NCBI GenBank assembly: GCA_030562215.1
Contig: JAUPFL010000002.1
Span: 620,001 to 684,000, forward strand
Source of the DNA: Peribacillus frigoritolerans
GTDB taxonomy: Bacteria > Bacillota > Bacilli > Bacillales > DSM-1321
Direction: 5' to 3'
DNA: 64,000 bases
The notes beneath the pieces are model-generated. The model was given only the letters and a program-made list of their open reading frames with translations, was not told the origin of the DNA and ran no database searches. Positions 1-59,421 of the stretch are shown here, one piece after another; position 1 is the stretch's first letter, and each line of letters opens with the position of its first letter. A program made the position numbers and the translations under genes.

Positions 1-1207
1 CGGTTCTTGAACGGCGGGCATACTGAAATAAAAAAAGAACTGACTGAAAAAATGCTAGAGGCATCGGAAGAGCTCGATTTCGAGAGGGCCAAGGAGTTCC
101 GTGACAAGATTGCCCACATCGATATTACGATGGAGAAGCAGAAAATGATGACGACCGATTTCATCGACAGGGATGTATTTGGCTTTGCCTATGATAAAGG
201 CTGGATGTGCGTTCAGGTATTTTTTGTCCGTCAGGGTAAATTGATAGAAAGGGATGTTTCACTTTTTCCGGTCTACGATGAACCCGAACAGGAACTTCTT
301 ACATTCCTCGGTCAGTTTTACGAGATTACGAACCACTTTAAACCAAAGGAAATCTTGCTGCCTGAATCAGTGGATGCCGAAATGGCCGAAGGGCTGCTTG
401 GTGTCAAAACGATTCATCCGAAACGGGGAGCGAAAAAGACATGCTTAAATTGGCGAATAAAAATGCCTCCATCGCCCTTCAGGAAAAATTCTCTTTGATT
501 GAAAGAGATGAAGAAAGAACGATCAATGCGGTGGAAAACCTCGGGAAACAACTGGGTATCTACACGCCGCATCGAATTGAAGCTTTCGATAACTCCAATA
601 TCCAGGGAAGTGACCCCGTTTCCGCTTTAGTCGTGTTCATTGATGGGAAGCCGGAAAAAGAGAGTACCGAAAATATAAAATCAAGACGGTCCAGGGACCT
701 GATGATTATGAATCGATGCGTGAAGTAGTCAGAAGAAGATATTCACGAGTATTGAAAGAAGGGCTGCCGCTTCCGGATTTGATCATCATTGATGGCGGAA
801 AGGGACATGTCGAAGCAGTGCGGGATATTCTCGAAAATGAATTGGGCCTTGATATTCCACTTTCAGGCCTCATTAAGGATGAAAAGCATAGGACCTCGCA
901 ATTGATGATCGGAAATCCGCTTGAACTCGTACCTCTTGATTCACGGAGCCAGGAATTTTACCTATTGCAAAGAATTCAGGATGAAGTGCACCGGTTCGCG
1001 ATTACGTTTCATCGTCAGCTTCGCGGGAAAAATGCGGTTCACTCCCAGCTTGATGATATTCCAGGAGTCGGGGAAAAGCGAAGGAAGCAATTATTAAGGC
1101 ATTTTGGATCATTGAAGAAAATCAAAGAGGCAACGGCGGAGGAAATCATGGAAGCTGGCATGCCAAAAGGGGTAGCCGAGGGAATCGTTAGAAAACTACA
1201 AGAATAA
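1..1207 (+). CDS. uvrC: UvrC, excinuclease ABC subunit C (5' end outside window, two frameshifts)
   Basis: UvrC makes both incisions around bulky DNA lesions in nucleotide excision repair, acting with UvrA and UvrB. The reading frame is open from base 1, so the N-terminal GIY-YIG domain lies upstream. Visible are the UVR helical motif ([18 protein letters not shown], bases 70-123), the RNase H-like nuclease core ([35 protein letters not shown]) and a C-terminal helix-hairpin-helix ([19 protein letters not shown]). The frame breaks at the A runs 433-437 and 655-659; one extra A at each restores continuous UvrC. The stop is at 1205-1207. Assignment is very secure; the breaks are probably sequence errors. 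Confidence 0.95.
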
Positions 1208-1269
1208 TCTTGCTACCGATGAATCTCTATGCTATGATTAAAAGGAATTTTTAACTAGACAACTTAAAA

Positions 1270-1443
1270 GTGCTGATAGAGGTGCGGAATTCAAGAGTAA
1301 AAACCTGGAGAAGTATGAGCTTCCATGAAAGGTTTTGAAAGGGGACGACGCCGAAGGAAGACAAGACTCATACCTTGTTCTCCTGGTCCGACATTTAATA
1401 AATGGCGGATTGTCAGGGTTTATACCCTGGAGAGCTATCTCAC
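1270..1443 (+). promoter_or_regulatory. Lysine riboswitch (L box) aptamer
   Basis: The leader of lysC carries the conserved L-box core: GATAGAGGTGC at 1275-1285, AAGAGTAA near 1293-1300, GAAAGGGGACGACGCCGAAG near 1336-1355, and a closing CTATC at 1435-1439 that pairs with GATAG 1275-1279 as P1. Lysine binding is expected to favour the terminator that follows, shutting off aspartokinase II synthesis. Order and spacing fit the family well. Confidence 0.92.
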
Positions 1444-1473
1444 TGTGTTTACAGTATTAGGGTATGTGACCAC

Positions 1474-1504
1474 AGCAATGAGATATTTCTCATTGCTTTT
1501 TTTA
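1474..1504 (+). terminator. Intrinsic terminator of the lysine riboswitch
   Basis: Perfect 10-bp stem AGCAATGAGA (1474-1483) / TCTCATTGCT (1488-1497) with a TATT loop, followed by a T run to 1503. It sits between the L-box aptamer and the lysC ribosome binding site, so it is the expression platform. Confidence 0.92.
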
Positions 1505-1534
1505 TTGCCTAAAAAGTAGAGAGGGTGCATGAGG

Positions 1535-2767
1535 ATGGCATTAATCGTTCAAAAATTCGGCGGAACATCCGTCGGTAGCGTAGAAAAAATCAAAAATGTT
1601 GCCAATCGGGTAATCGAGGAAGCGGAGAATGGAAATGAGGTTGTCGTCGTTGTTTCAGCTATGGGGAAAACAACGGACCAATTGGTTTCCATGGCCCGTG
1701 ATATTTCCGGATCCCCTAGCAAGAGGGAAATGGATATGCTATTGACCACTGGGGAACAGGTAACGATTTCCCTGTTAACGATGGCATTGATTGAAGAAGG
1801 ACATGAAGCCATTTCGTATACTGGCTGGCAGGCTGGCATGCAAACGGAATCCGTTCATGGGAATGCCCGGATTTTAAACATCGATGCCACGAGGATCCAA
1901 GCTCAGCTTCAGGAGAAGAAAATAGTGGTCGTAGCCGGTTTCCAGGGTAACGATGCAAATGGGGAAATCACTACCTTAGGGCGAGGCGGTTCCGATACGA
2001 CGGCGGTTGCCATCGCTGCAGCGCTGAATGCGGATAGATGCGATATTTATACGGATGTAACGGGTGTTTTCACAACGGACCCACGCTACATAAAAGGCGC
2101 GCGAAAACTCCAATCCATTTCTTACGATGAAATGCTGGAACTTGCCAACCTGGGGGCGGGCGTCCTTCATCCAAGGGCTGTCGAATATGCAAAAATTATC
2201 AAATTCCGCTTGAAGTCCGTTCAAGCATGAGAGAGAGAATCAGGAACGATCATAGAGGAGGAAGCAACTATGGAAGAAAACTTAATTGTACGCGGCATTG
2301 CTTTTGAAGACAGTATTACGAGGGTCACAATATACGGTTTGCCCCAATCACTTGGTGCATTATCCACTATCTTCACGACACTTGCGAAAAACCGGATCAA
2401 TGTGGACATCATCATTCAAAGCATGACTGCCGAGGATACGACCAATCTATCTTTTTCCACAAAAAGTGAAGATACGGAAGCGGCCTTGATTGTGCTGGAA
2501 AATAATAAAGAACACTTGGGATTCGACCGGGTTGAAACGGAGAGCGGGTTGGCCAAAGTGTCCATCGTCGGTTCTGGTATGGTATCCAATCCGGGAGTGG
2601 CTGCCGAGATGTTTGAAGTGATGGCCAATACAGGCATCCAAGTGAAAATGGTCAGCACATCGGAAATTAAAGTTTCGACTGTCATCAATGAAAAGGAAAT
2701 GGTGAAGGCGGTTGAATCCCTTCATGAAGCATTTAAACTTGGTCAGCATGCAAATGTGCTAGCTTAA
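1535..2767 (+). CDS. lysC: Aspartokinase II, alpha subunit (lysine-sensitive; frameshifted)
   Basis: Phosphorylates aspartate, the first step to lysine, diaminopimelate, threonine and methionine. The kinase domain shows [15 protein letters not shown], the [11 protein letters not shown] motif and VFTTDPR; the C-terminal half has two ACT domains. The frame breaks in the A run 2191-2195 and again in the GA-rich stretch 2229-2238; together they remove three bases, and repair gives about 411 aa as in B. subtilis LysC. The upstream L box indicates lysine control. I chose ATG 1535, which matches the family N-terminus and follows GAGG; ATG 1529 in frame is an alternative. A hairpin after 2786 ends the gene. 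Confidence 0.95.
2270..2767 (+). CDS. lysC: Aspartokinase II beta subunit from an internal in-frame start
   Basis: B. subtilis makes the beta subunit of aspartokinase II from an in-phase start inside lysC. Here ATG 2270 is preceded by AGAGGAGG at 2254-2261, a far stronger ribosome binding site than chance would give inside a coding region. The 165-aa product is exactly the C-terminal ACT-domain half (starting [14 protein letters not shown]). It is uninterrupted despite the damage just upstream. The family fact is established; its use here is inferred from site and spacing. Confidence 0.85.
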   Translation: MEENLIVRGIAFEDSITRVTIYGLPQSLGALSTIFTTLAKNRINVDIIIQSMTAEDTTNLSFSTKSEDTEAALIVLENNKEHLGFDRVETESGLAKVSIVGSGMVSNPGVAAEMFEVMANTGIQVKMVSTSEIKVSTVINEKEMVKAVESLHEAFKLGQHANVLA

Positions 2768-2822: not shown

Positions 2823-2868
2823 AGGGCTCATTAGATTGGATCTCTGGGATCCCATTGGATGGTGAATA

Positions 2869-3298
2869 TCACTTTTTTGCGCGGCGTTTGATTTCTTCCG
2901 TTGATTCGCTGAGGAATTTCTTTTGCAGTGTAAACTGCTCGGCAAGGAAACCGGCTTCAAGCTGGAAGTGACAATCAGGGTGTAAATCCAGGCGGCGGCT
3001 GATTATTTCACCCGTCAGGGATAATTCCATTTCGTGTTTCGTATACTTCAAGATTTCCAGATTCCCCACCCAGCGCTTTGGAAAAATTCAATCACTTCCT
3101 GATCGCCATTCAATGGGAATTTTCTTGCTAATTGTTTACCTGCCCAATAGAGGATTTGATTAGAGTCTTTTCCGAGAATATCGTTCAATAGAACTTCTCT
3201 GATTAATTCGTATCCGAAAGCTGGAACCAGGAATTCTTCAGTTTGAATTTCTTCAGTTTGAATCTCTTCTTCTATCGCAGCAGCAATATTTTTTTCAT
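2869..3298 (-). CDS. yslB: YslB family protein, DUF2507 (two frameshifts)
   Basis: Conserved Bacillus protein of unknown biochemical role, normally encoded next to the sdh operon as here. The C-terminal part is intact (FQLEAGFLAEQFTLQKKFL near the end). Reading back past a run of C (+ strand 3064-3067) gives YWAGKQLARKFP and GYELIREV, both typical of YslB. A second break is in the T run 3289-3295, right after the start codon. Repair gives about 143 aa, the family size. The start (complement of 3296-3298) has GAGG upstream. The N-terminus contains a short repeat, EEIQTEEIQTEE. It is convergent with lysC and divergent from sdhC. Confidence 0.85.
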
Positions 3299-3520
3299 AA
3301 TTTATCGCCTCTTTCTGTAAATCTATTATAAACGTATTTCTTTTGCAAATTATACTGTTTTTTATTTATTTAAATAACAATTGGAAAAAAATGAGAAATT
3401 ATACCGAGATATTAATAGGTAAATTAGAAATTTATTCAAAATATCACCTTGACAAACAAAAAATAGCCAATTTAATCCAAAAAATCTATTCTGAAAAAGA
3501 GATTTCTTGTATCCGTTTTC

Positions 3521-3604: not shown

Positions 3605-3680
3605 GTATTTTCACGCGGAGATAAAAGGTAGCCACCAGATTATCTTTGCATGATTTTTCACAAATTAAGGGGGGCACTTA

Positions 3681-4289
3681 GTGGCAAAGAATCGTGAGTT
3701 TGGGAATCGCAGGCTTCATTCACTTCTAGGAGTAATTCCAATTGGTCTATTCCTAATTTTTCATTTATCGGTAAACTTTATGGCAACAAAAGGAGAAGAA
3801 ACATTTAATGGGGCAGTTCATTTAATTGAGTTTACACCCGTGAAGATTTTGGTGGAATGGGTCGTCATCTATCTACCGCTCATTTTCCATGCTGTGTACG
3901 GAATTTATATTGCCTTTACAGCAAAAAACAATTTAGGCAGATTTAGTTTCTTCCGTAACTGGATGTTCATGCTGCAACGCTTAACTGGAATCATAACATT
4001 GATTTTCCTTGTTTGGCATATATGGGCAACTAGAATTCAAGCAGCTATGGGTGCTGAAGTTAACTTTGACATGATGGCGGATATTTTCTCTAGTCCATTC
4101 ATGCTTGTGTTCTATATTGTTGGTGTTATCTCGGCAATCTTCCACTTTGCTAATGGATTATGGTCATTTGCTGTGAGCTGGGGTCTGACAGTTTCACCAA
4201 GATCGCAAAGAATCATGACTTACTTTACATTGATCGTTTTCGTTCTTCTTTCTTATATCGGGATCAGCGCAATTTTCGCTTTTGTATAA
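3681..4289 (+). CDS. sdhC: Succinate dehydrogenase cytochrome b558 subunit
   Basis: Membrane anchor of complex II; it binds two b-type hemes and passes electrons from SdhB to menaquinone. The 202-aa length equals the B. subtilis protein, with five membrane segments and the expected histidines (RRLHSLLGVIP, FHLSVNF, FHAVYGIYIAFTAKNN, WHIWATRI, IFHFANGLWSFAVSWG). The GTG start at 3681 follows AAGGGGGG. First gene of sdhCAB, behind a sigma-A promoter and leader hairpin. Frame intact. Confidence 0.97.
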   Translation: MAKNREFGNRRLHSLLGVIPIGLFLIFHLSVNFMATKGEETFNGAVHLIEFTPVKILVEWVVIYLPLIFHAVYGIYIAFTAKNNLGRFSFFRNWMFMLQRLTGIITLIFLVWHIWATRIQAAMGAEVNFDMMADIFSSPFMLVFYIVGVISAIFHFANGLWSFAVSWGLTVSPRSQRIMTYFTLIVFVLLSYIGISAIFAFV

Positions 4290-6949: not shown

Positions 6950-7171
6950 TCTTTTTTTGAACCTTGGGGTCCCATGGCAGTAAGAACGATTGATAACTAG
7001 GATCGAAGTGTATATGGTTTGCGGCAATGGCTCCAGCAAAGGCTGAAGGATTTGATTAATGAAGTGAGCAATAAGCAATTTAAACGGTTTTAAGTATAAA
7101 ATACTTTTCAATATCGTTGTTTTCTTATAAAATGAGTGAATAGTCATTCAATTCAGAAAGGGTGTGCCAAG

Positions 7172-7635
7172 ATGGGCAAAATATCATATATCGATAATAT
7201 AACGGAGTGGATCAATGATTTTTCTTTTAAACATGAGATTAAGGTCCGTTTTTCTGAAACCGATATGTTTGGGCACTTGAATAACACGATTCCTTTTACT
7301 TATTTTGAGGAAGCTCGGATTGAGTATTTCAACAGTATGGGGTTCATGAAGGAGTGGACCTCGGCTGAATGCGGTGAGATGCCGGTTGTTGCCAATTTAC
7401 AGTGTGATTACCTTAAGCAGGTGTTTTTCAATGATCAATTGACGATCCATGTGAAAGCTGACCATATCGGAAATTCTTCAGTGGACATACATTATATGGG
7501 GACCAAACAAGATGGTTCAATTTGTTTAACGGGCAGGGGGACGATTGTGCAAGTTTCAAGGCCACCGGGAAGCCGGTGCCTTGGACGGAAGACATGAAGC
7601 GATCGATGCTGCATACTGTGCTGGAACATTCCTGA
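7172..7635 (+). CDS. ysmA: Hotdog-fold acyl-CoA thioesterase, YsmA-like (one frameshift)
   Basis: Predicted 4HBT-type thioesterase that hydrolyses acyl-CoA esters; the true substrate is unknown. The motif VRFSETDMFGHLNNT holds the D-x-x-G-H-x-N signature, followed by EEARIEYF. Start ATG 7172 has AAAGGGTG seven bases upstream. The frame breaks at TCAAGG (7557-7561); one extra A extends it through a plausible C-terminus to the stop at 7633-7635, about 154 aa. Its position between sdhB and gerE matches ysmA of B. subtilis. Confidence 0.85.
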
Positions 7636-8655: not shown

Positions 8656-9456
8656 TTGAAACAACCGATAGGCATCATTGATTCAGGAGTAGGCGGTTTG
8701 ACAGTAGCTAAAGAAGTCATGCGTCAGCTTCCAAATGAAAATATAATTTACTTAGGTGATACAGCAAGATGTCCTTATGGGCCGAGGACAAAAAAGATGT
8801 CCAAACCTTCACATGGCAAATGACGAGGTTTTTGATGAAGAAGGATATAAAAATGCTGATCATCGCTTGCAATACAGCGACTGCAGCTGTGCTGGATGAA
8901 ATCAGGGCTATACTTCCGATTCCTGTGTTGGGTGTCATTCATCCAGGGGCAAGGGCGGCATTGAAAGTTTCTGATTCCTTGCATATTGGAGTTATTGGTA
9001 CGGAAGGTACGGTAAAAAGCAAAGCTTATGACGATGCACTTGCCTCCATCAATTCCGATGTGAAAGTAGATAGTTTAGCATGCCCGAAATTTGTCCCAAT
9101 CGTAGAAAGCGGGGAGTTCCAAGGGGGATCGTCAATAGGGTCGTGGCACAAACCTTGAACCCGTTGAAGAAAACGAAGATCGATACACTGATCCTTGGCT
9201 GTACCCATTATCCACTGCTGGGGCCTGTAATCTCTTCCTATATGGGGGATGAAGTACAAGTCATTTCCTCTGGGAGGAGACGGCCCGTGAGGCAAGTGTC
9301 ATTTTGGATTACTATAAATTAATCAATAAAAGCAAGCTCCGTCCAGTTCATCATTTTTATACAACCGGTTCAAGAGATATGTTTGGTTCCATCGCGTCGA
9401 GCTGGCTCGGTATTCATGTCAATGACATCGAAACAATTAAAATCGATCACTTATAA
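8656..9456 (+). CDS. racE: Glutamate racemase (three frameshifts)
   Basis: Supplies D-glutamate for peptidoglycan and is normally essential. N-terminus [15 protein letters not shown], first catalytic-cysteine motif [14 protein letters not shown] and second motif LGCTHYPLL are all present. Breaks are in the A run 8790-8795, the G run 9123-9127 and the G run 9272-9274; each needs one extra base. Repair gives 267 aa ending at TAA 9454-9456, the family size. TTG start 8656 with GAGGCGAG upstream. Three breaks in an essential gene point to sequence errors rather than a pseudogene. Confidence 0.92.
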
Positions 9457-11199: not shown

Positions 11200-12352
11200 A
11201 TGAGAAAGTTAATTGCAGTTATAGTTATTGGATGTCAACTCTTTTTGACGACTGGATGCTGGGGAATGAAGGAAATTCAAGCACAAACATATGGATCTGC
11301 CCAGGGGATTGATTATAAAAAGGGTGAATTTATCTTATACTTTCAAGCGTTGGATTTTACGGATATAGCGAAACAAGAGGGAGCCGCTGCATTACAAGAA
11401 AAATCTTCTGTTCTCATTGGAAAAGGTAAAGGGAAAGTATAGAAGAAGCATATAGTGAATTAGAACAAAATGCAGCATTACCTCTTTATATCGGACATGT
11501 TAACTCCTTCATTTTAAGTAGGGATGTAATCAATAAGAAAATGAAGGAGTTCATTGAGTATGTAGGAAAAGAGCCTTTATTACGGTACAATTCATGGTTA
11601 TTTGTTACAAACGAGGATATTAAAAAGGTTTTTGACAGTGAAAGTTTCTATAATCTTCCTAACCTATTCTCGATTCTTCAAAGGCCAGAGACCGTTACAA
11701 ATGAAAACTATTTCATTCCCCATTAAAATTCAGTGAACTTGTTTCGAAATTTTATCAACCGGTGGGTTCCATATTAATTCCTTCAATAGAAATAAATGAG
11801 CATCATTACTCAGAGGCCGGGAAAGAAAAAAGATACCATCGTTAAATGGTGGGTATGTTTTATCAAAGCAACAGTACAAAGGGTTCGTAAGTAAACAAGA
11901 TTTAATAGGTTTAAAATGGGTTGAAAAAAGGCGACAATGATTTTTTTCCCTGAATAAACAAAAAATAAGTATTGAAATATTGAAACCTAAAACAAAAATC
12001 ATTGTATTGGAACAAGATAAGAGACCCTTATATGATTTAGAAGTTAGTGCAAATGGTATATTGAAACTAAATATAGATAACTTGGACATGAATAAAATTG
12101 AAAAAAATAGAAATGAAAATTAAGGAAGATATTTTGAAGACATTGGAGACATTGGAGAAAATCAATACAGACCTTTTTAACATAAGTGAAAAGGCATACA
12201 GATACCATGTTAATAAGTGGGATAATGAAATGATTAATTCCTTTGATAAAACCTCAATAAATGACATAAAGATATTCACATTGAACATAGTGAAAATTAC
12301 AAACGTCAGACTACAATTTCTGGGGTTATTGCAAAAGCGGGAGTTGTGTTAG
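11200..12352 (+). CDS. Orphan Ger(x)C-family germination lipoprotein (about six frameshifts)
   Basis: Ger(x)C proteins are the lipoprotein C subunits of nutrient germinant receptors. The N-terminus has a signal with lipobox LTTGCW followed by KEIQAQTYGSAQGIDY, typical of the family. Later fragments (GHVNSFILSRDVI, GKEPLLRYNSWLFVTNEDIK, GGYVLSKQQYKGFVSKQDLI) appear in order across frames, and the full span of about 384 codons is the usual length. Breaks lie near 11437, 11718, 11830, 11930 and 12105. No recognisable ribosome binding site precedes ATG 11200 and no GerA/GerB partner is nearby. It sits where rph should be. Either an error-rich intact gene or a decaying import. Confidence 0.75.
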
Positions 12353-12527: not shown

Positions 12528-13138
12528 ATGAAGACAGTAATCATTGCAACGAAAAATAAAGGGAAAGCCAAGGAGTTTGAAAGCTTATTCTCTGCTAAAG
12601 GATATGAAGTCAAAACACTTCTCGATGTACCGGATGCTCCGGATGTTGAGGAAACAGGCACAACTTTTGAAGAAAATGCGATCCTGAAGGCAGAGGCCAT
12701 TGCCCATCAGCTAGGCCACTTTGTCATTGCAGATGATTCCGGGTTGATTGTAGATGCATTGGAGGGCCGTCCGGGCGTATATTCTGCGCGCTATGCTGGA
12801 GAGTCCAAGAGTGATGAAGCGAACACGGAAAAAGTCCTCCGGGAACTGGAAGGCGTGCCAAAAGAAGATAGGACGGCGAGATTTTATTGCGCCTTGGCAC
12901 TCGCGTCACCCAACCAGGAAACGATTACGGTATCGGGAACGATGGAAGGCTTGATTACGGAACAGCCTTCAGGAACGAATGGATTTGGATATGATCCCAT
13001 CTTTTATGTTGAGGAACAGGGCAAAACAAACGCCGAATTAACAAAAGAGGAAAAAACAAAATCAGCCACCGTGCCAACGCATTGAGGGCTCTAGATGAAA
13101 AACTTGATCTATTTCTAAAAAGGGAAGAAGGTATGTGA
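12528..13138 (+). CDS. rdgB: XTP/dITP pyrophosphatase, Ham1/RdgB (one frameshift)
   Basis: Hydrolyses ITP, dITP and XTP to monophosphates, keeping deaminated purines out of nucleic acids. Motifs: [11 protein letters not shown] at the substrate loop, [31 protein letters not shown] and GFGYDPIF. The frame breaks in the A run 13051-13056; one extra A yields the family ending [17 protein letters not shown] and a stop at 13136-13138. ATG 12528 has AAAGGGTG nine bases upstream. Only two bases separate it from ysnB. Confidence 0.93.
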
Positions 13139-44162: not shown

Positions 44163-44209
44163 GATATTGGTATAGGTACCGTTTCATGAAGCTGAAAGGA
44201 GGAGTTGTC

Positions 44210-45621
44210 TTGTCGCAAGAAAATGAATCGTATTTACGATTTTCTTTAGAGGAATCCGTTTGGTTCCAGAAGGGACAGGAAGTGGCTGAGCTATATTCGA
44301 TTTCCCTTGATCCAAATGTGTCGATTCAAGAAAGTGATCAATATGTTTTTATACGAGGCTCGTTGGATTTAAGCGGTGAATACAAAGACTCGCAAAATGG
44401 TGAAGAAGAGGAGTTTTCGCAGACCTTTTTGCCAAAAGCGGTTCAAAAGGTCGAGAGGCATCTCAATGGACTTAATGAGTTCACACACCGTTTTCCGGTT
44501 GATATAACGATTCCGAATAATCGGATTGCCTCTTTGGATGAGGTCGATGTCTCGATTCAAAGCTTTGATTATGCCATGCCAGAGCATAACTGCTTGAAAT
44601 TGCAGGCGGACCTTTTGATAACCGGAATCTATAATGATTCATATGTGGAAGAACGGTTCGATACTGAACAGGAAGTTGGGGAAACGGAGGATCAGGAAGA
44701 AACGGATGGGGAAAATGAGTCATATATTCCTTATGCAGCTGCAGTGCCGCCAATCCCGGATTTTCAGCCTGTTTTCCGTGATGAGGAGGAAGAAGAGTTA
44801 TACGCGCCTTTTTCTGCAGAGGCAAAACGGGTTTCTGAAGCAAACGAAGAAGAAGAAGAAGAACCGATTTATTTAAGCGATCAGCATAATGCTCCCGTTT
44901 TGAAATTCCCGTTTCACCATATCCTGAAGAGGAGGAATGGGAAACGGAAGTGCATAGACAGGAAGAAGCTGAAGCTGTAGAGGAAGAAGTAATTGGTGAT
45001 CCGCCTGACTCCACGGAAAAGGTCCCTTTCATGGGAGAGGCGAAATTGGAGGAAGAACCAAGCAGGCAGGATTCCACGGAGAAGACGGAGATTCCTAGAG
45101 TGACATTTATAGAAGAAGAAGTAGTAGAAGAGCCAGGTCAAGCAACCAAACATCAAAGTAGCCCAGTTTCAAATTTAGAAACCGAGGATGTCATCCGGCA
45201 GGAAGAAGATGCCGTTACAGCGGGTCCTATCCTTAATGAGAATGTGAAGGTGGAGCAGGAAGAGGAATCCAATTCGTCCATAAGCGATCTATTCAAAAAG
45301 AGGGAAAGACCTGCACCTCCAGCTAAGGAGGCTAAGAATTTCAAAGGCAGGAAACAAGCAGCGGAACGTGATGAAAAAGAACGGCCGATCATGATGAAAA
45401 GCAGCTTTCCATCATGGATTTATTCGGACGGAAACAAGAAGAAGAACTGGTAAGGATGAAGGTTTGCATTGTTCAGCAAGGGGGAAACGCTTGATGACTT
45501 GGCTCAACGATATGATGTTACGGTTCAATCGATACTTTTCAGCAATGAATTGGAGTCGAATCAGAACGTCCATGAAGGGCAAGTCATTTATATACCGAAG
45601 GCGGTTGCGTATAAGAATTGA
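44210..45621 (+). CDS. spoVID: SpoVID, spore coat morphogenetic protein (three frameshifts)
   Basis: Needed for the coat to encase the forespore. N-terminal domain LRFSLEESVWFQKGQEVAEL and DITIPNNRI, a long acidic Glu-rich middle and a C-terminal LysM (MKVCIVQ, ETLDDLAQRYDVTVQS, GQVIYIPKA). Breaks: T run 44906-44907, T run 45406-45408 and near 45477-45484 (an added base or two lost). Repaired length about 470 aa. TTG 44210 has AAAGGAGGAG upstream. Followed by ysxE, as in B. subtilis. Confidence 0.93.
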
Positions 45622-46789: not shown

Positions 46790-46830
46790 ATACATGATTG
46801 GATGATCTCCAGTCATGTATATATTTTTTG
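46790..46830 (+). terminator. Terminator of ysxE
   Basis: TACATGA and TGGA pair with TCCA and TCATGTA in a stem with a one-base bulge, then TATATTTTTT. Confidence 0.85.
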
Positions 46831-46844
46831 CTGTAAGGGAATAA

Positions 46845-47035
46845 TTAAATCCAGTCGAAATACAAAGACATGGCCAGGAAAATAAAGGCGATCAGCAGGA
46901 GCATATCGAAGAATGTCGGGAAAATCAGCGTACGTAATCCTTGAATACGATAAAGGGGACGATGAACTGCTGGCAGACACCGCGGATTTTTTTCACCCAA
47001 GGCGGTAAAGTATAGGGAGTATATCTTCGCTTCAT
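46845..47035 (-). CDS. Small membrane protein, about 63 aa (one frameshift)
   Basis: On the - strand, AAGGAAGG precedes ATG (complement of 47033-47035). The frame reads MKRRYTPYTLPPWVKKIRGV then CQQFIVP; a C run (+ strand G 46955-46958) is one base short, after which RIQGLRTLIFPTFFDMLL and IAFIFLAMSLYFDWI follow to the stop at 46845-46847. One basic head and one or two membrane helices. I recall similar short proteins in other Bacillus but no named family. Convergent with ysxE. Confidence 0.65.
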
Positions 47036-47533: not shown

Positions 47534-50181
47534 ATGGAAGAGAACCAAATTTCTATGCCGACTAAATATGATCCGCAGACGATAGAGAAAGGCCGCTACA
47601 AATGGTGGCTTGATGGAAAGTTTTTCGAAACGACGGGTGACGATAAAAAAGAACCATATACGATTGTCATCCCGCCGCCTAACGTTACAGGTAAGCTGCA
47701 TCTTGGCCACGCTTGGGATACGACACTTCAAGATATATTGACACGCATGAAAAGGATGCAAGGCTATGATGTTTTATGGTTGCCAGGCATGGACCATGCC
47801 GGTATCGCCACTCAAGCGAAAGTAGAACAGAAACTTCGTGCGGAAGGCGTAAGCCGTTATGACCTTGGTCGTGAAAAATTCGTGGAAGAAACATGGAAAT
47901 GGAAAGAGGAATATGCAAGCCATATCCGTGAACAATGGTCAAAGCTTGGTCTTGGACTTGATTATACACGTGAACGCTTCACTCTAGATGAAGGGCTTTC
48001 AAAAGCAGTGCGTGAAGTGTTCGTTTCGCTTTATAACAAAGGCTTGATTTATCGCGGCGAATACATCATCAACTGGGATCCATCAACGAAAACGGCGTTA
48101 TCCGATATCGAGGTCATTTACAAAGATGTGCAGGGCGCATTTTACCATATGAAATATCCGTTGGTTGACGGATCGGGTGAAATTGAAATTGCCACCACCC
48201 GTCCAGAAACGATGCTTGGCGATACTGCTGTTGCCGTACACCCTGAAGATGACCGTTATAAACACTTGATCGGCAAAAGGTCCGCTTGCCAATTACAGGC
48301 AGGGAAATCCCGATTGTCGGTGATGATTATGTCGATATGGAATTCGGTTCAGGCGCGGTCAAAATTACTCCGGCTCATGACCCGAATGACTTCGAAATCG
48401 GGAACCGTCATGATTTGGAGCGCATCCTTGTCATGCATGAAGATGGCTCGATGAATGAAAAGGCCGGTAAATATGAAGGCATGGACCGTTTTGAATGCCG
48501 TAAACAAATCGTCAAGGACCTTCAGGAAGAAGGAGTACTCTTCAAAATCGAAGATCACCTTCATTCAGTAGGCCATTCAGAAAGAAGCGGTGCTGTTGTT
48601 GAACCATATCTTTCGACTCAATGGTTCGTTAAGATGCAGCCGCTGGCTGATGCATCCGTTGAGCTTCAAAAAGGAACCGATGAGGAAAAGTTCATTTCGT
48701 ACCGGACCGTTTCGAAAAACGTACCTGCATTGGATGGAAAATATCCGCGACTGGTGCATTTCCCGTCAGCTTTGGTGGGGTCACCGCATTCCAGCCTGGT
48801 ACCATAAAGAAACAGGTGAAGTGTATGTAGGTCATGAAGAGCCTGCGGACGCTGAAAACTGGGAACAAGATACAGATGTCCTTGATACATGGTTCAGCTC
48901 GGCATTATGGCCGTTCTCGACTATGGGCTGGCCTGACAAGGACAGTGTCGATTTCCAACGTTACTATCCAACCGGGGCACTTGTGACAGGCTATGATATC
49001 ATTTTCTTCTGGGTATCGCGGATGATTTTCCAAGCTCTTGAGTTCACAGGTGAACGACCATTTGAAGATGTGCTGATCCACGGCCTGGTTCGAGACGAAC
49101 AGGGGCGCAAGATGAGTAAATCGCTTGGCAATGGCGTCGATCCGATGGATGTCATCGATCAATACGGTGCCGATTCCCTGCGTTACTTCTTATCTACGGG
49201 CAGTTCGCCAGGCCAGGACCTTCGTTATAGTACGGAAAAAGTCGAAGCAGTTTGGAATTTCTCCAATAAGATTTGGAACGCATCCCGTTTTGCTTTGATG
49301 AACATGAATGGCATGACTTATGACGAAATCGATTTAAGCGGTGAGAAGTCTGTAGCCGATAAATGGATCTTGACGCGTCTGAATGAAACGATTTCCAACG
49401 TAACCAGACTTGCGGACCGTTATGAGTTTGGTGAAGTGGGCCGTGTGCTTTACAACTTCATTTGGGATGACTTCTGTGACTGGTATATTGAAATGGCGAA
49501 GCTTCCGCTATATGGAGAAGACGAAGCGGCTAAGAAAACGACGCGCTCGATCTTGGCTTATGTACTGGATAACACAATGAGATTGTTACACCCGTTCATG
49601 CCATTCATTACCGAAGAAATCTGGCAGAACCTACCGCATCAAGGTGAGTCCATCACTGTTGCCGCCTGGCCGGAAGTGAATGAAGAGTTGACGGATACAG
49701 CTGCAGCCGAGGAAATGAAGCTGCTTGTTGAAATCATCCGCTCCGTCCGTAATATCCGTGCTGAGGTGAATACACCGCTAAGCAAAAAAATCAATTTGAT
49801 TTTAAAAGCGAAAGATGAGGCAATCTTAGCGACATTACAGAAAAACAGCAGCTATATCGAGCGTTTCTGTAATCCGGAACAATTGACGATCGGAATCGAA
49901 GTCGAAGAACCTGCTCAAGCCATGACAGCTGTCGTAACTGGCGTAGAACTAATCCTTCCGCTTACAGGACTGATCAATATTGACGAAGAAGTGAAACGTC
50001 TTGAAAAAGAACTCGACAAACTTAATAAAGAAGTTGAGCGTGTACAGAAAAAATTAGGCAACGAGGGCTTCGTTAAAAGGCGCCGGCAAGCGTCATCGAA
50101 GAAGAACGTGCCAAGGAAAAAGACTATAGCGAAAAACGCGACTCTGTAATCCACAGGATCAATGAACTGAAACAACTGTAA
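47534..50181 (+). CDS. valS: Valyl-tRNA synthetase (four frameshifts)
   Basis: Essential class I enzyme. HIGH signature in [19 protein letters not shown], editing-domain motifs [16 protein letters not shown] and [22 protein letters not shown] in [14 protein letters not shown], anticodon domain and a C-terminal coiled arm. Breaks: A run 48275-48278, G 48690, A run 48715-48719 and A run 50075-50078, one base short each; repair gives 883 aa to TAA 50179-50181. AAAGGAGG before ATG 47534. T-box controlled. Four breaks in an essential gene imply sequence errors. Confidence 0.96.
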
Positions 50182-50233: not shown

Positions 50234-51097
50234 CTATTTAAGAAAAATATTCCGTTTGGAGGATATTCTTTCTTTTATGAATGTAAGGTACTCCCATACG
50301 ATATTCATATCACTTAGTGCACTTAATGTACGGCTCCCGACGACATCCTCTATTTCGTTCAGCATGAGGCTGCCATCTTCGGCAAATATGAAATCGATGC
50401 CGACCAGTCCGAAATCAAACGGCATCATTACTCTTTCAACAAGGGCTAATTCAGATGCAGTCAGCTCATATAGAGAAGCCGATCCGCCCAGCGTATAATT
50501 TGCCTTGAAACTGGAAGCGGATTCCCTGAGTACAGCAGCCTTCACTTTATTACCAACCACAAAAACGCGGATATCCCTACCGAATAAGCCAGGCTTTTGG
50601 ACTATCCAATTTCCATCATTCAGTTCGGCTAGATCATCGGCATGCTCGATTAGATATACTTGTTTCCCGCTGCGGCCGCGTGTTTCTTTAGCAATGAATG
50701 GGAGCTCCATGTCATCGGCACTCGGCCTTCCGTTACAATATACGGTATCGGCCATTGGTATCCCCAGCGAGGACAAATATTGATGCGTCTTTGCTTTGTC
50801 ATTCGCGATTTCCGATACGAAGGAGGAGTTAAAGCAAGCAATCCCCAGTTGCTCAAGTTGCTTTGTAAAAAAAGGATCGATGGTCCGGACGATAGCAAAG
50901 TCTGGCAATGAAATTGGCTGAGTCTCATGTTCCACATACAACTTGCTGAAACGATGACCGATCCTAAGGTCTTCCCGAAAGTGAAAGTGTAAATCAAGAT
51001 CAAGCTTACTGGCTTCGTTAAGCATACAATCTATGTATCCTTTATTTTTCAAGGCATCCTCACGGTTATAAATCAACCAGCCTGCTTGTCTTTTCAT
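50234..51097 (-). CDS. RimK-like ATP-grasp protein B
   Basis: About 287 aa. N-terminal pre-ATP-grasp domain (GWLIYNREDALKNKGYIDCM), then LPFIAKETRGRSGKQVYLIE, GRDIRVFVVGNKVKAAVLRE and MLNEIEDVVGSRTL, the order found in RimK-type ligases. The metal-site EVN triad of the neighbour is here NEIED, a difference worth noting. Substrate unknown. The start (complement of 51095-51097) has AAAAGGAAG upstream and overlaps gene A by about 30 bases, so the two are translationally coupled. Frame intact. Absent from this locus in B. subtilis. Confidence 0.78.
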   Translation of the reverse strand: MKRQAGWLIYNREDALKNKGYIDCMLNEASKLDLDLHFHFREDLRIGHRFSKLYVEHETQPISLPDFAIVRTIDPFFTKQLEQLGIACFNSSFVSEIANDKAKTHQYLSSLGIPMADTVYCNGRPSADDMELPFIAKETRGRSGKQVYLIEHADDLAELNDGNWIVQKPGLFGRDIRVFVVGNKVKAAVLRESASSFKANYTLGGSASLYELTASELALVERVMMPFDFGLVGIDFIFAEDGSLMLNEIEDVVGSRTLSALSDMNIVWEYLTFIKERISSKRNIFLK

Positions 51098-52005
51098 CAG
51101 ATGCACTTCCTTTTCCTAATTGTTTCAAGATATAATCGAACATGCTATCAGCGATGTTGATGCCTGTACATTCATAAATGTTCAGTAAATGCGAATTGGA
51201 ATTCACTTCGCACAAAAGCGGACCTTCTTCACCGAACAACAAATCGACGCCAGCGAAGTCGGCACCCAGAATTTGCGCACATCGAATGGCAAGTTGTGCT
51301 TCTTCACTGGTGGGTATATATCGTGCAGCCTGCCCCCGGCAGTCATATTAGCTCGGAAGTCCTGCTCGGAATGACGTTGCATCGCTGCTATGACTTGATT
51401 GCCCACGACATTCACGCGAATATCCCGACCTTTACTGTGCTCGATGAATTCCTGGAGTATAAATGGTTTGTGGCCAAGATTACGAACCGTCTTTAGTAAC
51501 TCATCCTTTGTATGGATTAAATATACTTGTTCCCCAAAAGAACCGTATGCTTCCTTTACGATAAGAGGATATCCAAGTTCATTGCCGATTTGGATAAAAG
51601 CATCCATATTGACCCTTTCAATCCCTTCGTACGTAAAAGGGGGAAATAAGGTCTTCGGCATCGGTATGCCGTGCCCTGTTAATGCTTGATGTGTTTTGCT
51701 TTGCTGTCGCAAATATCGATTGCTGTACTGCTGTTATATACGGGGATGCCGAGCAATTCCAAATGGCGTGCTAAATGAATGTCTTTATCCATGAACAGAA
51801 CAAAATCTGGCAGCTTATCAAAGGTTCCTTTAAGCAGTGGCACTCCTTTTTCGATTATGGGAATGAGATCTGAATTGCGGATAAGGGTTGCCATGATATC
51901 TTTCCTTTCAGCCGCCTCTTTAATGAACAAAGCTAAACTGGAAAACTTATCATGCTGTAAATAGCCGTTGACGACAATCCAACAGTGAAAATCTGAAGGT
52001 TTCAT
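51066..52005 (-). CDS. RimK-like ATP-grasp protein A (two frameshifts)
   Basis: First gene of the - strand pair. N-terminal FHCWIVVNGYLQHDKFSSLA; ATP-grasp parts YPLIVKEAYGSFGEQVYLI, FILQEFIEHSKGRDIRVNVV, FRANMTAGGRLH; and the metal-binding end PLLCEVNSNSHLLNIYECTG. Breaks: T run 51694-51697 and near 51306; one base each gives about 313 aa. AAAGGTAG precedes the start. RimK-type enzymes add amino acids, often glutamate, to carboxylates through acyl phosphates; the target here is unknown. Confidence 0.78.
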
Positions 52006-52103: not shown

Positions 52104-53392
52104 ATGGTTACAACCATAAAAGAAATCAATCATTTTTTTGAACGGCGCCAAGTTCAATTGGGCATGAATTTTGGCCTGTCACGGATGGAAACATTGTTAA
52201 CTGAATTAGGTGACCCGCACAAGGCGCTAAAGTATATTCACATTGCAGGGTCCAACGGGAAAGGATCGACACTGCAATATATTAAAGAAATCCTGCTTGC
52301 CCAAGGGATTCGGTTCGCTTCCTTCACTTCTCCTTATTTAATACGGATGAATGAACAGCTGAAGATAAATGAGGATGAAATCAGTGATCAGGATTTTATC
52401 GCTGTCTTCCAGAAGCTTTGGCCGATCATCCATGAGATGGACAGTAAGGGGAATGGTCCCACTCAGTTCGAAATTTTGACTGCAATGGCATTCTCTTATT
52501 TTAGCAAAAAGGAAGTCGATTTGGTTTTGATGGAAGCGGGTTTGGGAGGCAGGCTTGATACAACGAATGTAATCCAGCCGTTTCTTTCGATCATTACCTC
52601 GATTTCTTTGGAACATACGAACATCCTGGGTAACACACTTGGGGAAATTGCTTTTGAGAAGGCGGGCATCATTAAAAGCGGGGCGCCGGTCATCAGCGGA
52701 GTCACAGCTGGGGAACCAGCAAAAGTAATTGAAGAAAAAGCGTCATCTTTAGGCGTACCTTATTACCAACTAGGTAAAGACTTTCATGTTGGCAATTTGA
52801 AGCAAAGTGAACGGGGACAAAGTTTCTCATTTTCGCTTAGCGACATTACCATCGAAAATGTGGAAATGCGGATGCTAGGCCGTCATCAAATGGAGAATGC
52901 GGCACTGGCCATTGCAGCTGTCACAGTAGGAATGGAAAATATCGATGAAAAAGCATCCTTAAAGGAATAGGGGAAGCGAAATGGGATGGACGCTTTGAAA
53001 AAATATCGGATGAGCCATTGGTGATCATTGATGGTGCACATAATCCTGCCGGCATCGACGTACTGAAGGAAACGCTAAAAGTGCATTACCCCGACTATAA
53101 GTACCGATTCGTATTCAGCTCATTTAAAGATAAAAACTATTCCGAGATGCTTCATGGACTGGAAACGGAGGCAATGGAAATCATCATTACCGAATTCGGC
53201 CATGAACGGGCGGCGGATGCGAGAACGCTTTATGAAAAATGCAGTCAACCAAATAAAAGCATAAACAAGGATTGGCAGGCGGCAATAACGGAAGGTAGAA
53301 GGAAAACAGGGGATAAAGAGATTCTTGTCATTACGGGGTCCCTTCATTTCCTTTCACTTGTAAGGGAGTTCCTAATCAGAGAAGATGCCTAA
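52104..53392 (+). CDS. folC: Folylpolyglutamate synthase / dihydrofolate synthase (one frameshift)
   Basis: Adds glutamates to folates. P-loop AGSNGKGSTLQYIKEIL, SPYLIRMNEQ, EAGLGGRLDTTNV, LEHTNILG, then the C-terminal domain with IIDGAHNPAGIDVLK and VFSSFKDKNY. Break in the A run 52948-52952; one A joins NIDEK to SILKGIGEAKWDGRFE. Repaired length 429 aa. AGAGGAGG ten bases before ATG 52104. Divergent from the ATP-grasp pair. Confidence 0.95.
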
Positions 53393-53740: not shown

Positions 53741-53744
53741 ATGA
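53643..53744 (+). CDS. Possible 33-aa leader peptide overlapping the comC start
   Basis: ATG 53643 follows CGGGAGGA and the frame (MIMKNPIVNYMAEGTF…) ends TGA 53742-53744, overlapping ATG 53741 of comC. Such an arrangement would couple comC translation, whose own start lacks a good site. No family recognised; could also be a frame-damaged 5' end of comC. Confidence 0.35.
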   Translation: MIMKNPIVNYMAEGTFISGFQRKAIEASCTLDK

Positions 53745-54492
53745 TGGCTATCCATATCTATCTCTTCGTATTGGGCTTAATTTTAGGCTCATTCTTTAAT
53801 GTTGTCGGTTTAAGTGTTCCAGCTGGTCATTCATTTGCAAATCGGCGCTCCTCCTGCCCTCTTGCGGGCGTACATTGACATTCTTCGAGTTGATACCGGT
53901 TATTTCTTATATGTTGCAAGTCGGTAAATGCCGGGGCTGTAAAGCAAGGATTTCCCCCTTTATCCAGCAGTGGAAATGCTGACCGGTGTTTTGTTTGCCT
54001 CTGCTCCAATATTCCTTGGCTGGTCGAGCGAACTCATGGTTGGCTGGACATTGATTTCATTATTTATGATCATTTTCGTCACTGATGTCGCCTATATGCT
54101 CATACCCGATAAAATACTGCTTTTCTTTATGGTGATTTTTATCGTTTTAAGAGTCTCATTTCCACTGACGCCCTGGTGGGATACAATTGTCGGGGCAGCT
54201 GTTGGCTTTAGCCTGCTGTTATCAATCGCTGTCGTGAGTAAGGGGGGCATGGGTGGCGGTGATATCAAGCTGTTTGCAGTGATTGGCTTCGTATTGGGAA
54301 TGAAGATGGTGCTGCTATCGTTGCTTTTTGCGTGCTTTTATGGGGCGTTGCTTGGCATCATCGGGTTGCAGACCGGGATCCTAAAAAAAGAAAACCCTTA
54401 TTCCTTTCGGACCGTATATCGTTTTTGGGACATTGACTGCTTATTTTTGGGGCGATTCCCTTTTATATTGGTATGTAACATTTTTAAGATGA
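53741..54492 (+). CDS. comC: Prepilin peptidase ComC (three frameshifts)
   Basis: Membrane aspartyl protease and methylase that matures competence pseudopilins. Start MMAIHIYLFVLGLILGSFFN, cysteine pairs CPSCG and CRGC (first visible after frame repair), catalytic Asp in VTDVAYMLIPD and GMGGGDIKLF. Breaks: near 53860 (T lost), T run 53959-53961 (T lost) and near 54398 (a T gained). Repair ends at TGA 54490-54492, about 250 aa. Start ATG 53741 or 53744. Confidence 0.9.
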
Positions 54493-54771
54493 GCTTAAAG
54501 GGCCATCCTGATCCAAGAGGAATTTGTCAAAAATCACCTGAACAATAGCGCAGTAGGGAACTATCCCCATTTGGCTTCAAGAGTATATGAAATGATGGAG
54601 GGATATATGTAATTGGTGAGAGGTGAAATTGAATGGTTCATGAAGCGAAAGTACCAGTACCTGGAATTCCTTTTTTGTTACCCATATATGAATAGGGAAA
54701 TTTGACGAAACCTATTAATGACAAGACGACAAAAGTCTTGTTTTTTTTTACCTCTATGTTAGGATGAAAAA
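54493..54771 (+). other. comC-spoIIB gap
   Basis: Contains a strong terminator, ACAAGAC (54721-54727) / GTCTTGT (54735-54741) with nine T. A 20-codon frame from ATG 54633 with GAGGTGAAA upstream (starting MVHEAKVPVPGIP) is too short to call. Confidence 0.6.
54719..54750 (+). terminator. Terminator before spoIIB
   Basis: 7-bp perfect stem with loop GACAAAA and nine T; ends transcripts coming from comC. Confidence 0.85.
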
Positions 54772-54795
54772 ATGATCTGGAGGGGAGGAAAAAAA

Positions 54796-55769
54796 TTGGG
54801 CAAGCCGGGACAAAGCAAGGGTGTAACGATTAAAATAAATGGGGAAGAAAAAGTATTTGCCGATAAAAAGATTGAAAGTCAAGAGGCGGCGAGCGAGGAG
54901 CAGGAACAGGAACACACAGATGAGAGTTTCGAATGGATACTCCCTGAGGATTCAAATGAAAACAAGATCGTATTGGTTCCCTCACCGCCAAAGAAGAAAA
55001 TGCCGAAGCTCATCGGTTTTGGTACCGGTTCACTGAAAAGCTCGGATAAAAGACCAATCAAGACATTCATGATCGCTGTCATTTGTGCTGTTTTTTTTGG
55101 GTCGATTCTTGGCTTGATCGCCGTTAAAACGATTACAAAGGAAAAAGCCGAAGTATCTTCGGTCGAGACCCCGATTCCAACCGAAGCCACTGTTGAAGAT
55201 AAAAAAGCGGCAGTGACTGAACCGGGAAATCAGCTGAAGACATTCCTTGTACAGGGAGGAGTATTCAGCAGCGAGGATGCGGCAAGGCAAATACAAAAGA
55301 AAATCATTGAAAAGCAGGTTCCTGCTGAAATTTTCAAAATGGAAGACAGCTATTATCTATTCTTGGGATCGGCAGAGAGTCTAGCTGCAAGTAAAGAGCT
55401 GGCCTTGTTCTTAAAGTCATATGATGTAGATGTATATTGGAAGGAAATCAATTTTGAAGCGGCAGGGACAAGCCAAGAAGATGAGAAAACCCTCGATAAG
55501 ATGAAGACCGTATATGCTTCGTTGGCAGAAACATCCGCAACAAAGCTTCGTGGAAAGGCAGGGACGGTAAACGAAGAAGCCCTGAAAAAAACATGGATGA
55601 ACTGAAGGCGGGGAAATTATCGCCGGGGTTTTCAAAGTTGAACGATGACCTGACTGCTGCGGCAAAGTCGATTGATGAATATGAGACTTCCAAAAATGAA
55701 GAAAAGCTATTCCAGGCTCAAGAAAGTCTTCTGAATTTTTTATTGAATTACCAAAACATATCGAGTTAA
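54796..55769 (+). CDS. spoIIB: SpoIIB, SPOR-domain sporulation protein (one frameshift)
   Basis: Helps localise septal peptidoglycan thinning and engulfment. Acidic cytoplasmic N-terminus, one membrane helix (TFMIAVICAVFFGSILGLIA) and an extracytoplasmic SPOR domain (KTFLVQGGVFSSEDAARQIQ, YYLFLGSAESLAAS). Break in the A run 55585-55591; one A continues to TAA 55767-55769, 324 aa. TTG 54796 has GGAGGGGAGG upstream; ATG 54772 in frame is less likely. Located after comC as in B. subtilis. Confidence 0.88.
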
Positions 55770-56575: not shown

Positions 56576-57263
56576 TTGAGCGAAAAAAATGTTAATACGG
56601 GATTACCCGAAAGAAGAGAGGCCGCGCGAAAGGTTTCTGCAGGACGGGCCGAGAAGCCTCTCCAATCAGGAATTGCTTGCTTTGCTTTTGAGGACGGGTT
56701 CAAGGGAAGAATCTGTCCTGCAACTATCCGGCAGGCTCATCAATTCCTTCAAGGGCCTGCGCCTGCTAAAAGAAGCTTCTGTGGAAGAACTGATCGTGAT
56801 TAAAGGGATTGGTGAAGCAAAAGCGATACAAATCCTGGCCTCTGTCGAACTTGGCAGGAGAATTAACAATCTGAATGATCAAGACCGTTATGTGATTCGT
56901 TCCCCTGAAGATGGAGCTAATTATTGCATGGAGGAAATGCGGTTTCTATCACAGGAACATTTCGTCTGTCTCTATTTAAATACGAAAAATCAAGTGCTTC
57001 AAAAAACTACGGTATTCATCGGCAGCCTCAATGCCTCGATCGTGCATCCACGCGAGGTCTTTAAAGAGGCTTTCAAAAGGTCAGCTGCCTCTATCATTTG
57101 TCTTCATAACCACCCCTCCGGAGACCCCTCTCCCAGCAGAGAAGATATTGAAGTGACGAAAAGGTTAGTCGAATGTGGTAAAATAATCGGGATTGAAATA
57201 TTGGACCATATCATCATCGGGGAGCATAAATATGTTAGCTTGAAGGAAAAAGGTTATTTATGA
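56576..57263 (+). CDS. radC: RadC/YsxA JAMM-domain protein (frameshift after start)
   Basis: Conserved DNA-repair-associated protein of uncertain function. Frame from ATG 56589 gives LIRDYPKEERPRERFLQDGP, a helix-hairpin-helix (LIVIKGIGEAKAIQIL) and the metalloprotease-like motif LHNHPSGDPSPSREDIEVT. TTG 56576 has GGAAGGG eight bases upstream and reads MSEK, but the A run 56582-56588 is off by one; removing an A joins it to radC (228 aa). The start region can fold CTTCCCTT onto AAGGAAGGG and hide the site. Confidence 0.92.
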
Positions 57264-57411
57264 CACTATCAAAATTTTTGACGATACGATATAATATTGT
57301 TTATGATTTTTAAAAGAGGAAACTTTTTCAAAACTCTTATTGTCAAAAAACGACAAATTATTATTTGAACTTATAAAAAGGCATTTTTGTTTACGAAAGG
57401 GAGATACCATA

Positions 57412-58431
57412 ATGTTTGGAATTGGAGCTAGAGATATAGGGATTGATTTAGGAACGGCGAATACGCTTGTCTATGTGAAGGGAAAAGGCATCGCAGTACG
57501 TGAACCATCGGTTGTAGCTGTGCAAACAGATACAAAGCAAATCGTTGCAGTCGGAAACGATGCGAAAAACATGATCGGCCGTACACCTGGTAACGTGGTT
57601 GCCCTACGCCCGATGAAGGATGGAGTAATTGCCGATTATGAAACGACGGCTACCATGATGAAGTACTATATGAAGGAAGCTCAAAAGAAGGGCGTATTCG
57701 GCAACAAGCCATATGTCATGATTTGTGTGCCTTCTGGAATTACGGCAGTTGAGCAACGTGCAGTCATCGATGCAGCTAGACAAGCTGGGGCCCGTGACGC
57801 ATATCCTATCGAAGAACCGTTTGCAGCAGCGATCGGTGCGGACCTTCCTGTTTGGGAGCCTACAGGAAGCATGGTCGTTGATATCGGCGGAGGAACGACG
57901 GAAGTGGCCATCATTTCACTTGGCGGAATCGTTACAAGCCAATCGATCCGTATTGCCGGTGACGAAATGGATGATGCCATTATCGTTTACATCCGTAAGA
58001 ACTATAATTTGATGATCGGTGAGCGTACTGCTGAAGCGATCAAAATGGAAATTGGTTCTGCTGGAGACACGGAAGGCGTAGAAAACATGGAAATTCGCGG
58101 CCGTGACCTATTGACTGGATTACCGAAAACGATTGAAATTACAGCTGAGGAAATATCCAAAGCATTAAGCGACACCGTTTCTGCAATTGTGGATTCCGTG
58201 AAAAACACTTTAGAGAAAACACCACCTGAATTAGCCGCTGACATCATGGACAGAGGCATTGTACTGACAGGCGGGGGTGCTTTGCTGCGCAATTTGGATA
58301 AAGTCATCAGTGAAGAAACGCAAATGCCGGTGATCATCGCTGAAAATCCGCTGGATTGTGTTGCGATCGGAACGGGAAAAGCGCTGGACCACATTCATTT
58401 ATTCAAGACTAAATCAAGAGATTCGCGATAA
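57412..58431 (+). CDS. mreB: MreB, actin-like cell-shape protein
   Basis: Forms membrane-bound filaments that guide wall synthesis. Phosphate-1 [18 protein letters not shown], phosphate-2 [18 protein letters not shown], adenosine motif [15 protein letters not shown]. 339 aa, near-identical to B. subtilis MreB. ATG 57412 follows CGAAAGGGAG; an in-frame upstream ATG (57340) is rejected. Frame intact. Terminator follows. Confidence 0.98.
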
Positions 58432-58451
58432 GCATTACTTCTCAAATAGGG

Positions 58452-58488
58452 CCGGCTCAACAAAAGGTGCAATTTTGAGCCGGTTTTT
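58452..58488 (+). terminator. Terminator between mreB and mreC
   Basis: 9-bp perfect stem CCGGCTCAA / TTGAGCCGG and five T, so mreB may be expressed above mreCD. Confidence 0.88.
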
Positions 58489-58549
58489 CTTATGTTTTGC
58501 TGTTTAATTAAATCCATAGAGTAAATTTTTAGATAGAGGTGTAAACACC

Positions 58550-59421
58550 ATGCCACAGTTTTTTAATAAAAAGCTCCTTCTCTTGCTCGTTAGTATTATC
58601 GTTCTCGTGGCATTGATCGGTTTTTCATTAAGGGAGAGAGAAGAGTTGACCTGGCCGGAGCAATTCCTGAAAGATACGACAGGCTGGGTCGGAAATGTGT
58701 TTAATAAGCCAGTATCGGGTATAACAGGTTTTGTAGGGGGCTTAAAAGACCTTCAACATACATACGATGAAAACAAAAAATTGAAAGCCCGCTTGGATGA
58801 ATATGTATTATTGAAAACCCAAGTCCAAGATTTAAAGGAAGAAAATGAAGAACTTCGCGATAACCTCAAAAAAGAAGATGACCTGCGGAAGTATTCGCCC
58901 ACTCAGGCGACGGTCATTGGGCGTAATCCCGACCGCTGGCATGAAATGCTGACGATCAATAAAGGGAAGCGTAATGGGGTAGAAAAAACATGGCTGTCAT
59001 AACGTCCAATGGGTTAGTCGGTAAGGTGAAATCAGCGACGGATTTCACGGCCTCGGTTCAACTTTTAAGTTCGATCGACAAAGCCAACCGTGTCTCGGCC
59101 ATCGTTCAAGGTGATGATAAAGCATATGGCTTGATTGAAGGGTTTGATGATAAGAAGAACCTTTTGCTGATGAAACGGATTCCATATGATAAAAAGATCA
59201 AGAAAAATTCATTGGTCATCACATCCGGTTATGGAGGAATCTTTCCGAAAGGTCTGCTGATCGGGAAAGTTGTCGATGTCAAAGTGGATCAATATGGATT
59301 GAACCAGACTGCATATATTGAACCTTCGACGGATTTTTATGATATTAATAATGTCATGGTCGTTCAGCGTGAAGTGGACGGTGTACCGAAAGAAAGTGAA
59401 GGGGAGGATGAAGCTGAGTGA
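58550..59421 (+). CDS. mreC: MreC (one frameshift)
   Basis: Bitopic partner of MreB. One N-terminal membrane helix (LLLLLVSIIVLVALIGFSL), a coiled coil (LKARLDEYVLLKTQVQDLKE) and the extracellular beta domain (GLVGKVKSATDFTASVQLLS, GYGGIFPKGLLIGKV). Break in the A run 58983-58988; repaired length 290 aa. GAGGTG before ATG 58550; stop overlaps mreD. Confidence 0.95.

Follow-up and report, generated by a model that had tools for sequence, protein, structure and literature searches.

The 64,000-nucleotide stretch of a Peribacillus genome analysed here (the window; bases 620001-684000 of contig 2) carries genes whose reading frames are interrupted, many of them indispensable to a bacterium. The question is whether these interruptions exist in the strain or in its written sequence. 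A preliminary description of the window attributed them to homopolymer under-calls and advised caution with any pseudogene. Our comparisons with related genomes indicate that the broken frames are almost certainly consensus errors of this kind and that the strain itself carries these genes unbroken. Individual sites were judged against relatives, and none is singly proven.

Genome and comparison set

The genome comprises 5,375,132 bases (5.375 Mb) in 3 contigs. The assembly has a completeness of 87.46% and a contamination of 2.98, against a completeness of 99-100% (rounded) in 35 of 35 congeners. Among the 80 best of the 569 matches listed for LeuA, the top named ones were Peribacillus frigoritolerans RU293 and Bacillus sp. 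SD075, both at 99%. The first 20 kb of the smallest contig (C3), compared with plasmid records, gave a best match over a quarter of that length at 88%. The genus Peribacillus is associated with soil and plants, and most of the window's named genes serve housekeeping or sporulation.

We compared the window with syntenic 70 kb stretches of five congeners (G006, G015, G028, G024 and G001), and P. frigoritolerans RU293 (G007, identified by 13 kb of RU293 sequence that recurs in it unchanged) was used as a sixth, independent congener. DNA identity in long aligned pieces was about 94-97% across most of the window. Between 11000 and 18000, the identity to the five congeners dropped to 84-93%. A tRNA-Arg gene lies in this region, at 13827, and its surroundings are possibly a hot spot of exchange.

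Frameshifting indels in the window

Genes were aligned one by one, taking as reference the 66 orthologues with an uninterrupted frame in three or more of the five congeners. Sixty of these were compared; of the remaining six, four lie past the end of the window and two are germination genes that it lacks. The window carried 60 private frameshifting indels, distributed over 33 of the 60 compared genes. They included 49 losses and 6 gains of one base, 3 losses of two bases, and single losses of 4 and 179 bases. Single-base losses thus represented 49 of the 60 frameshifting indels and 49 of the 55 single-base events (89%). These values agree with the preliminary figures of more than 50 single-base frameshifts in about 30 genes, nine in ten of them losses.

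The names of 30 of the 33 broken genes were obtained by an NCBIfam search with the G006 orthologues (for hemA, with the N-terminal 171 aa of its G015 counterpart). The gerC-like gene was named through Pfam, and for the ORF at 18315 a Pfam search restricted to its first 44 residues gave no match. The genes, with their coordinates, strands and private frameshifting indels, are as follows.

1529..2767, +, aspartate kinase, 2 indels
2831..3299, -, 156-aa protein, no NCBIfam match, 2 indels
3646..4289, +, succinate dehydrogenase cytochrome b558 subunit, 1 indel
7164..7635, +, acyl-CoA thioesterase-like, under the family cut-off, 1 indel
8656..9456, +, glutamate racemase (racE), 3 indels
11200..12309, +, gerC-like spore germination gene, probable real pseudogene, 7 indels
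12528..13138, +, XTP/dITP diphosphatase, 1 indel
15711..16074, +, 120-aa protein, weak sub-cut-off match to a group I intron endonuclease, 1 extra base near the 3' end, also in G007
17892..18169, +, 92-aa protein, no NCBIfam match, 1 indel
18315..18633, +, remnant of a 170-aa ORF, about 190 bases short
19272..21029, +, acetolactate synthase large subunit (ilvB), 2 indels
22631..24165, +, 2-isopropylmalate synthase (leuA), 1 indel
24181..25292, +, 3-isopropylmalate dehydrogenase (leuB), 1 indel
25359..26769, +, 3-isopropylmalate dehydratase large subunit (leuC), 2 indels
26789..27396, +, 3-isopropylmalate dehydratase small subunit (leuD), 1 indel
30498..31765, +, clpX, 1 indel
31948..33614, +, lonB, 3 indels
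33869..36189, +, lon (endopeptidase La), 1 indel
36186..36766, +, engB/ysxC GTPase, 1 indel
37535..38899, +, glutamyl-tRNA reductase (hemA), named through G015, 3 indels
40682..41476, +, uroporphyrinogen-III synthase (hemD), below every listed equivalog cut-off, 3 indels
42503..43790, +, glutamate-1-semialdehyde aminomutase (hemL), 2 indels
44186..45621, +, stage VI sporulation protein D (spoVID), 3 indels
46803..47000, -, 65-aa ORF, no NCBIfam match, 1 indel
47534..50181, +, valine--tRNA ligase (valS), 4 indels
51060..52005, -, RimK-family ligase, 2 indels
52104..53392, +, folC, 1 indel
53741..54492, +, 250-aa protein, no NCBIfam match, 3 indels
54763..55760, +, 330-aa protein, no NCBIfam match, 1 indel
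56576..57263, +, radC, 1 indel
58550..59421, +, mreC, 1 indel
62061..62302, +, 80-aa ORF, which may not be a gene, 1 indel
62365..63115, +, 249-aa protein, no NCBIfam match, 1 indel near the 3' end

With each congener taken in turn as the focal genome, the frameshifting indels numbered 4 in G006, 3 in G015, 7 in G028, 2 in G024 and 2 in G001, affecting 1 of 54, 2 of 55, 2 of 63, 2 of 63 and 2 of 63 genes, respectively; this control is slightly asymmetric, as a focal congener was set against three or four others and the window against three to five. A simpler pairwise count against the G006 genes gave 65 frameshifting indels in 33 of 59 genes for this genome, and 13 in 7 of 63 covered genes for G007, which was above the other controls. 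G007 agreed with the other congeners, against the window, at 56 of the 58 covered frameshifting events; the two events outside its coverage belong to the gerC-like gene. The extra base at 16065 is common to G007 and the window. The 179-base loss placed at 18633 was scored as common to both by misplacement, and the whole ORF is present in G007.

A stricter count, in which an indel had to be identical relative to every aligned congener, found only 31 single-base losses and 8 gains (2-5 and 0-6 in the congeners), the excess of gains being small. This procedure undercounted, since a substitution close to a gap can move the position at which the gap is aligned, and the gene-level alignment was used instead. 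Larger length differences at about 18.56, 31.8 and 53.4 kb were kept out of the error analysis; the first is that of the ORF at 18315 described below, and at about 31.8 and 53.4 kb the congeners themselves vary in length.

The eight runs offered as examples in the preliminary description were all one base short relative to every aligned congener (2 of 2 at 433, 4 of 4 at 9123 and 5 of 5 at the others). Their deficit was confirmed, with small corrections to the assignment of the missing base to a given run. At 53959-53961, this base belongs to the adjoining C run according to four of five congeners. For the runs at 48275, 9123 and 19786 the membership is ambiguous because the congeners have another base beside the run (in 4 of 5, 3 of 4 and 2 of 5, respectively). 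Judged by the G006 ORFs, the family length of 883 aa proposed for valS was correct, while leuD has 202 aa instead of 199 and ilvB 586 instead of 571, the latter depending on the choice of start.

Dependence on run length

In their intact form, 38 of the 49 single-base losses lay in runs of at least 3 identical bases, where 20.5% of the coding bases are located (binomial p 2e-17). Seven of the 49 fell outside any run, as aligned. We then tabulated runs with identical 4-base flanks and the same length in G006 and G015, over five regions representing 224 kb of this genome. The shortened fraction was 13/56578 (0.02%), 9/16639 and 9/4193 for lengths 1, 2 and 3, rose to 13/1380, 16/508 and 19/139 for lengths 4, 5 and 6, and reached 19/53 (36%), 13/16 and 3/3 for lengths 7, 8 and 9. 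Lengthened runs numbered 15 in total in the same table. Runs of all four bases were affected. In the region of the window, the same method counted 30 shortened and 4 lengthened runs here, against 2 and 1 in G028, 4 and 1 in G024, and 5 and 5 in G001. Runs of at least 8 bases occurred 6.25 times per 100 kb in this genome, versus about 21 times in G006 and in G015.

Such a pattern is best attributed to an assembly built from error-prone long reads, without correction by accurate reads or with too little of it. The base caller or the consensus step would under-count identical neighbouring bases and write the run one base short. The probability of this shortening would climb steeply with run length, and each loss within a gene would break the frame on paper only. 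We infer the long-read-only assembly, as well as the read type: older-pore nanopore would fit best, considering the steep loss at runs of 7-9, with noisy PacBio reads as a less likely alternative. The gerC-like gene fits simple under-calling poorly.

Leftover homopolymer indels that break genes are described for long-read-only bacterial assemblies in three reports (PMC8812927, PMC9262707, PMC12007338). The errors in the first two appeared to be of the same kind as those seen here, that is, mostly homopolymer indels and frameshifted gene calls, and no difference was seen (PMC8812927, PMC9262707). According to the Kastor paper, a draft had 23.3% pseudogenes before correction, 89.2% of those were frameshifted only, and deletions followed runs of one and the same base (PMC12007338). 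Reads were available for confirmation in that study (PMC12007338), whereas our case is based on comparison with relatives only.

Spread across the genome

The preliminary description gave the pattern an extent of 1 to 59421. The indels are indeed there, but they are not confined to it; they continue beyond 59421 to the end of the window and are present elsewhere in the genome. Four further 40-kb regions, three on contig 1 and one on contig 2, were compared with G006 and G015 (27-31 of 42-49 reference ORFs each). Frameshifting indels there reached a density of 0.68-1.21 per kb in this genome, while G006 and G015 differed from each other by 0.02-0.28 per kb. The window, with 1.11-1.13 frameshifts per kb, was not special in this respect, and the density was similar in five regions on two of the three contigs.

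Disagreement among the 23S rRNA copies

The rRNA gene copies inside one cell are expected to be nearly alike. We found 12 full 23S rRNA matches in this genome (contig C1; 12 of 135 candidates scored), and at least 8 in G006, with pieces at three further places (12 of 99 candidates scored). The 8 full copies of G006 showed no gap or mismatch to its first copy over the aligned length (two of them from base 2 on). In contrast, each of the 12 full copies here lacked 2-8 bases, in 12 different combinations drawn from 19 sites. One site was short in 12 of 12 copies, a G6 run in 10, and a G5 run and a C6 run in 6 each, while ten of the 19 sites were short in a single copy only. The copies additionally carried 0-5 substitutions and 0-2 extra bases each. 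The site short in every copy could be either a genuine difference or a miscall of a systematic kind. Since the copies should nearly match and rRNA has no frame to rescue, their disagreement makes error the simplest cause.

The germination locus and a truncated ORF

One locus is a probable exception to the general pattern. In G006, three adjacent germination genes encode a spore permease (PF03845), GerA (PF03323) and GerAC (PF25198, PF05504). The spore permease and GerA genes, about 2.65 kb, are gone from the window (locus 11162-12309), and a search of the rest of this genome found no close copy of the lost GerA (best match 41% identical). The remaining gerC-like gene (11200-12309) carries seven indels, two of 2 bases and one of 4 bases, and shows a raised ratio of nonsynonymous to synonymous differences (48 to 61). 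The gene is full length in 12 congeners, G006 included, at 90-100% identity. In the fetched stretch of G007, the same two partner genes are missing and about the last half of the gerC-like gene is kept. In G006 coordinates, the segment lost from the window spans about 9759 to 12413, and the one lost from G007 about 9793 to 12969. None of the five covered gerC-like indels of the window was found in G007.

These features suggest that the gerC-like gene, unlike the other broken frames, has probably truly decayed. The likeliest course is a loss of the receptor in part of the group, with the remainder decaying, and miscalls may nonetheless account for part of the seven indels. The general caution about pseudogenes was thus well placed, except at this gene, whose decay appears real.

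The ORF at 18315-18633 is a remnant that lacks about 190 bases present in G006, G015, G028, G024 and G007; G001 is without the ORF. The remnant also has a raised nonsynonymous ratio and 3 nonsense changes.

One might extend the case of the gerC-like gene to a minority of the other shifts, taking the lineage to be early in gene loss, with this locus as the visible part and the true extent masked by errors. We consider this quite improbable.

Selection on the broken genes

Genome decay in general, in which the strain no longer uses the genes and frameshifts accumulate, is extremely improbable as an explanation of the broken frames. It is probably true at one locus, that of the gerC-like gene (11200-12309), whose partner genes are absent. 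Elsewhere, it would mean that valS, racE and engB are dead, and these genes are essential in related bacilli. The losses also hit the 23S rRNA copies.

Selection was measured by codon comparison with G006. The nonsynonymous to synonymous counts were 278:829 for all 33 broken genes and 119:453 for the 27 unbroken ones. When the gerC-like gene and the remnant at 18315 were left out, the other 31 broken genes gave 208:757, a ratio of 0.27 compared with 0.26 in the unbroken genes. The 33 broken genes contained 4 nonsense changes, 3 of them in the truncated ORF, and the gene sets of four congeners contained 7, 5, 2 and 3. Hence, in the 31 broken genes taken together, with 1 nonsense change, neither relaxed selection nor an excess of nonsense changes was found. 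By this measure, purifying selection is equally strong in broken and unbroken genes, contrary to what decay would predict. True pseudogenes have broken frames alike, which fits the gerC-like gene; the other broken genes, pooled, differ from them in lacking relaxed selection and a nonsense excess.

Homopolymer under-calling, by comparison, explains the intact selection, the run-length dependence, the dominance of single-base losses, the spread over five regions, the 23S disagreement and the low completeness, in agreement with the preliminary attribution.

Improbable alternatives: true shortening or rescue of shifted frames

A mutator lineage, for example one without mismatch repair, could truly shorten its homopolymers, and slippage would give a similar dependence on run length. 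However, private substitutions numbered 544 in 53.5 kb here and 466-1061 in 49-57 kb in the congeners. This value, within the congener range, speaks against a mutator, all the more as frameshifting indels stood at 60 versus 2-7. Gains were few (6 of 55 single-base events), the 23S copies differ among themselves, and such a mutation load would be intolerable for essential genes. We regard this origin as extremely unlikely.

The least probable reading, with a next to negligible chance, is that the frames are truly shifted and rescued by transcriptional slippage, which is known at A or T runs in some reduced genomes, or by programmed frameshifting; here runs of all four bases are affected, untranslated rRNA has the same kind of losses, and conservation of the shift was not seen in the orthologues, which are open in at least three congeners, with G007 agreeing at 56 of 58 events.

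Consequences for use of the assembly

Because almost all of the breaks are in all likelihood sequencing errors, they reflect the quality of the assembly and not the biology of the organism. We are dealing with an artefact of a known kind plus one probable real pseudogene, which is of low biological interest but a useful quality flag. The warning matters since the assembly represents a species in a one-genome-per-species set. Extrapolated from the five regions, 0.7-1.2 frameshifts per kb of compared coding sequence would amount to some thousands of false breaks, and pseudogene counts, gene-loss claims and protein families derived from the assembly would mislead. Comparison of rRNA copies within one genome offers a cheap, read-free test that helps to separate such errors from decay.

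The window also contains regulatory elements upstream of three of the listed genes. A lysine riboswitch (1269-1445) precedes the aspartate kinase gene. T-box leaders, both above the Rfam gathering score, are located upstream of ilvB (18941-19199, 114.7 bits) and valS (47262-47490, 134.9 bits).
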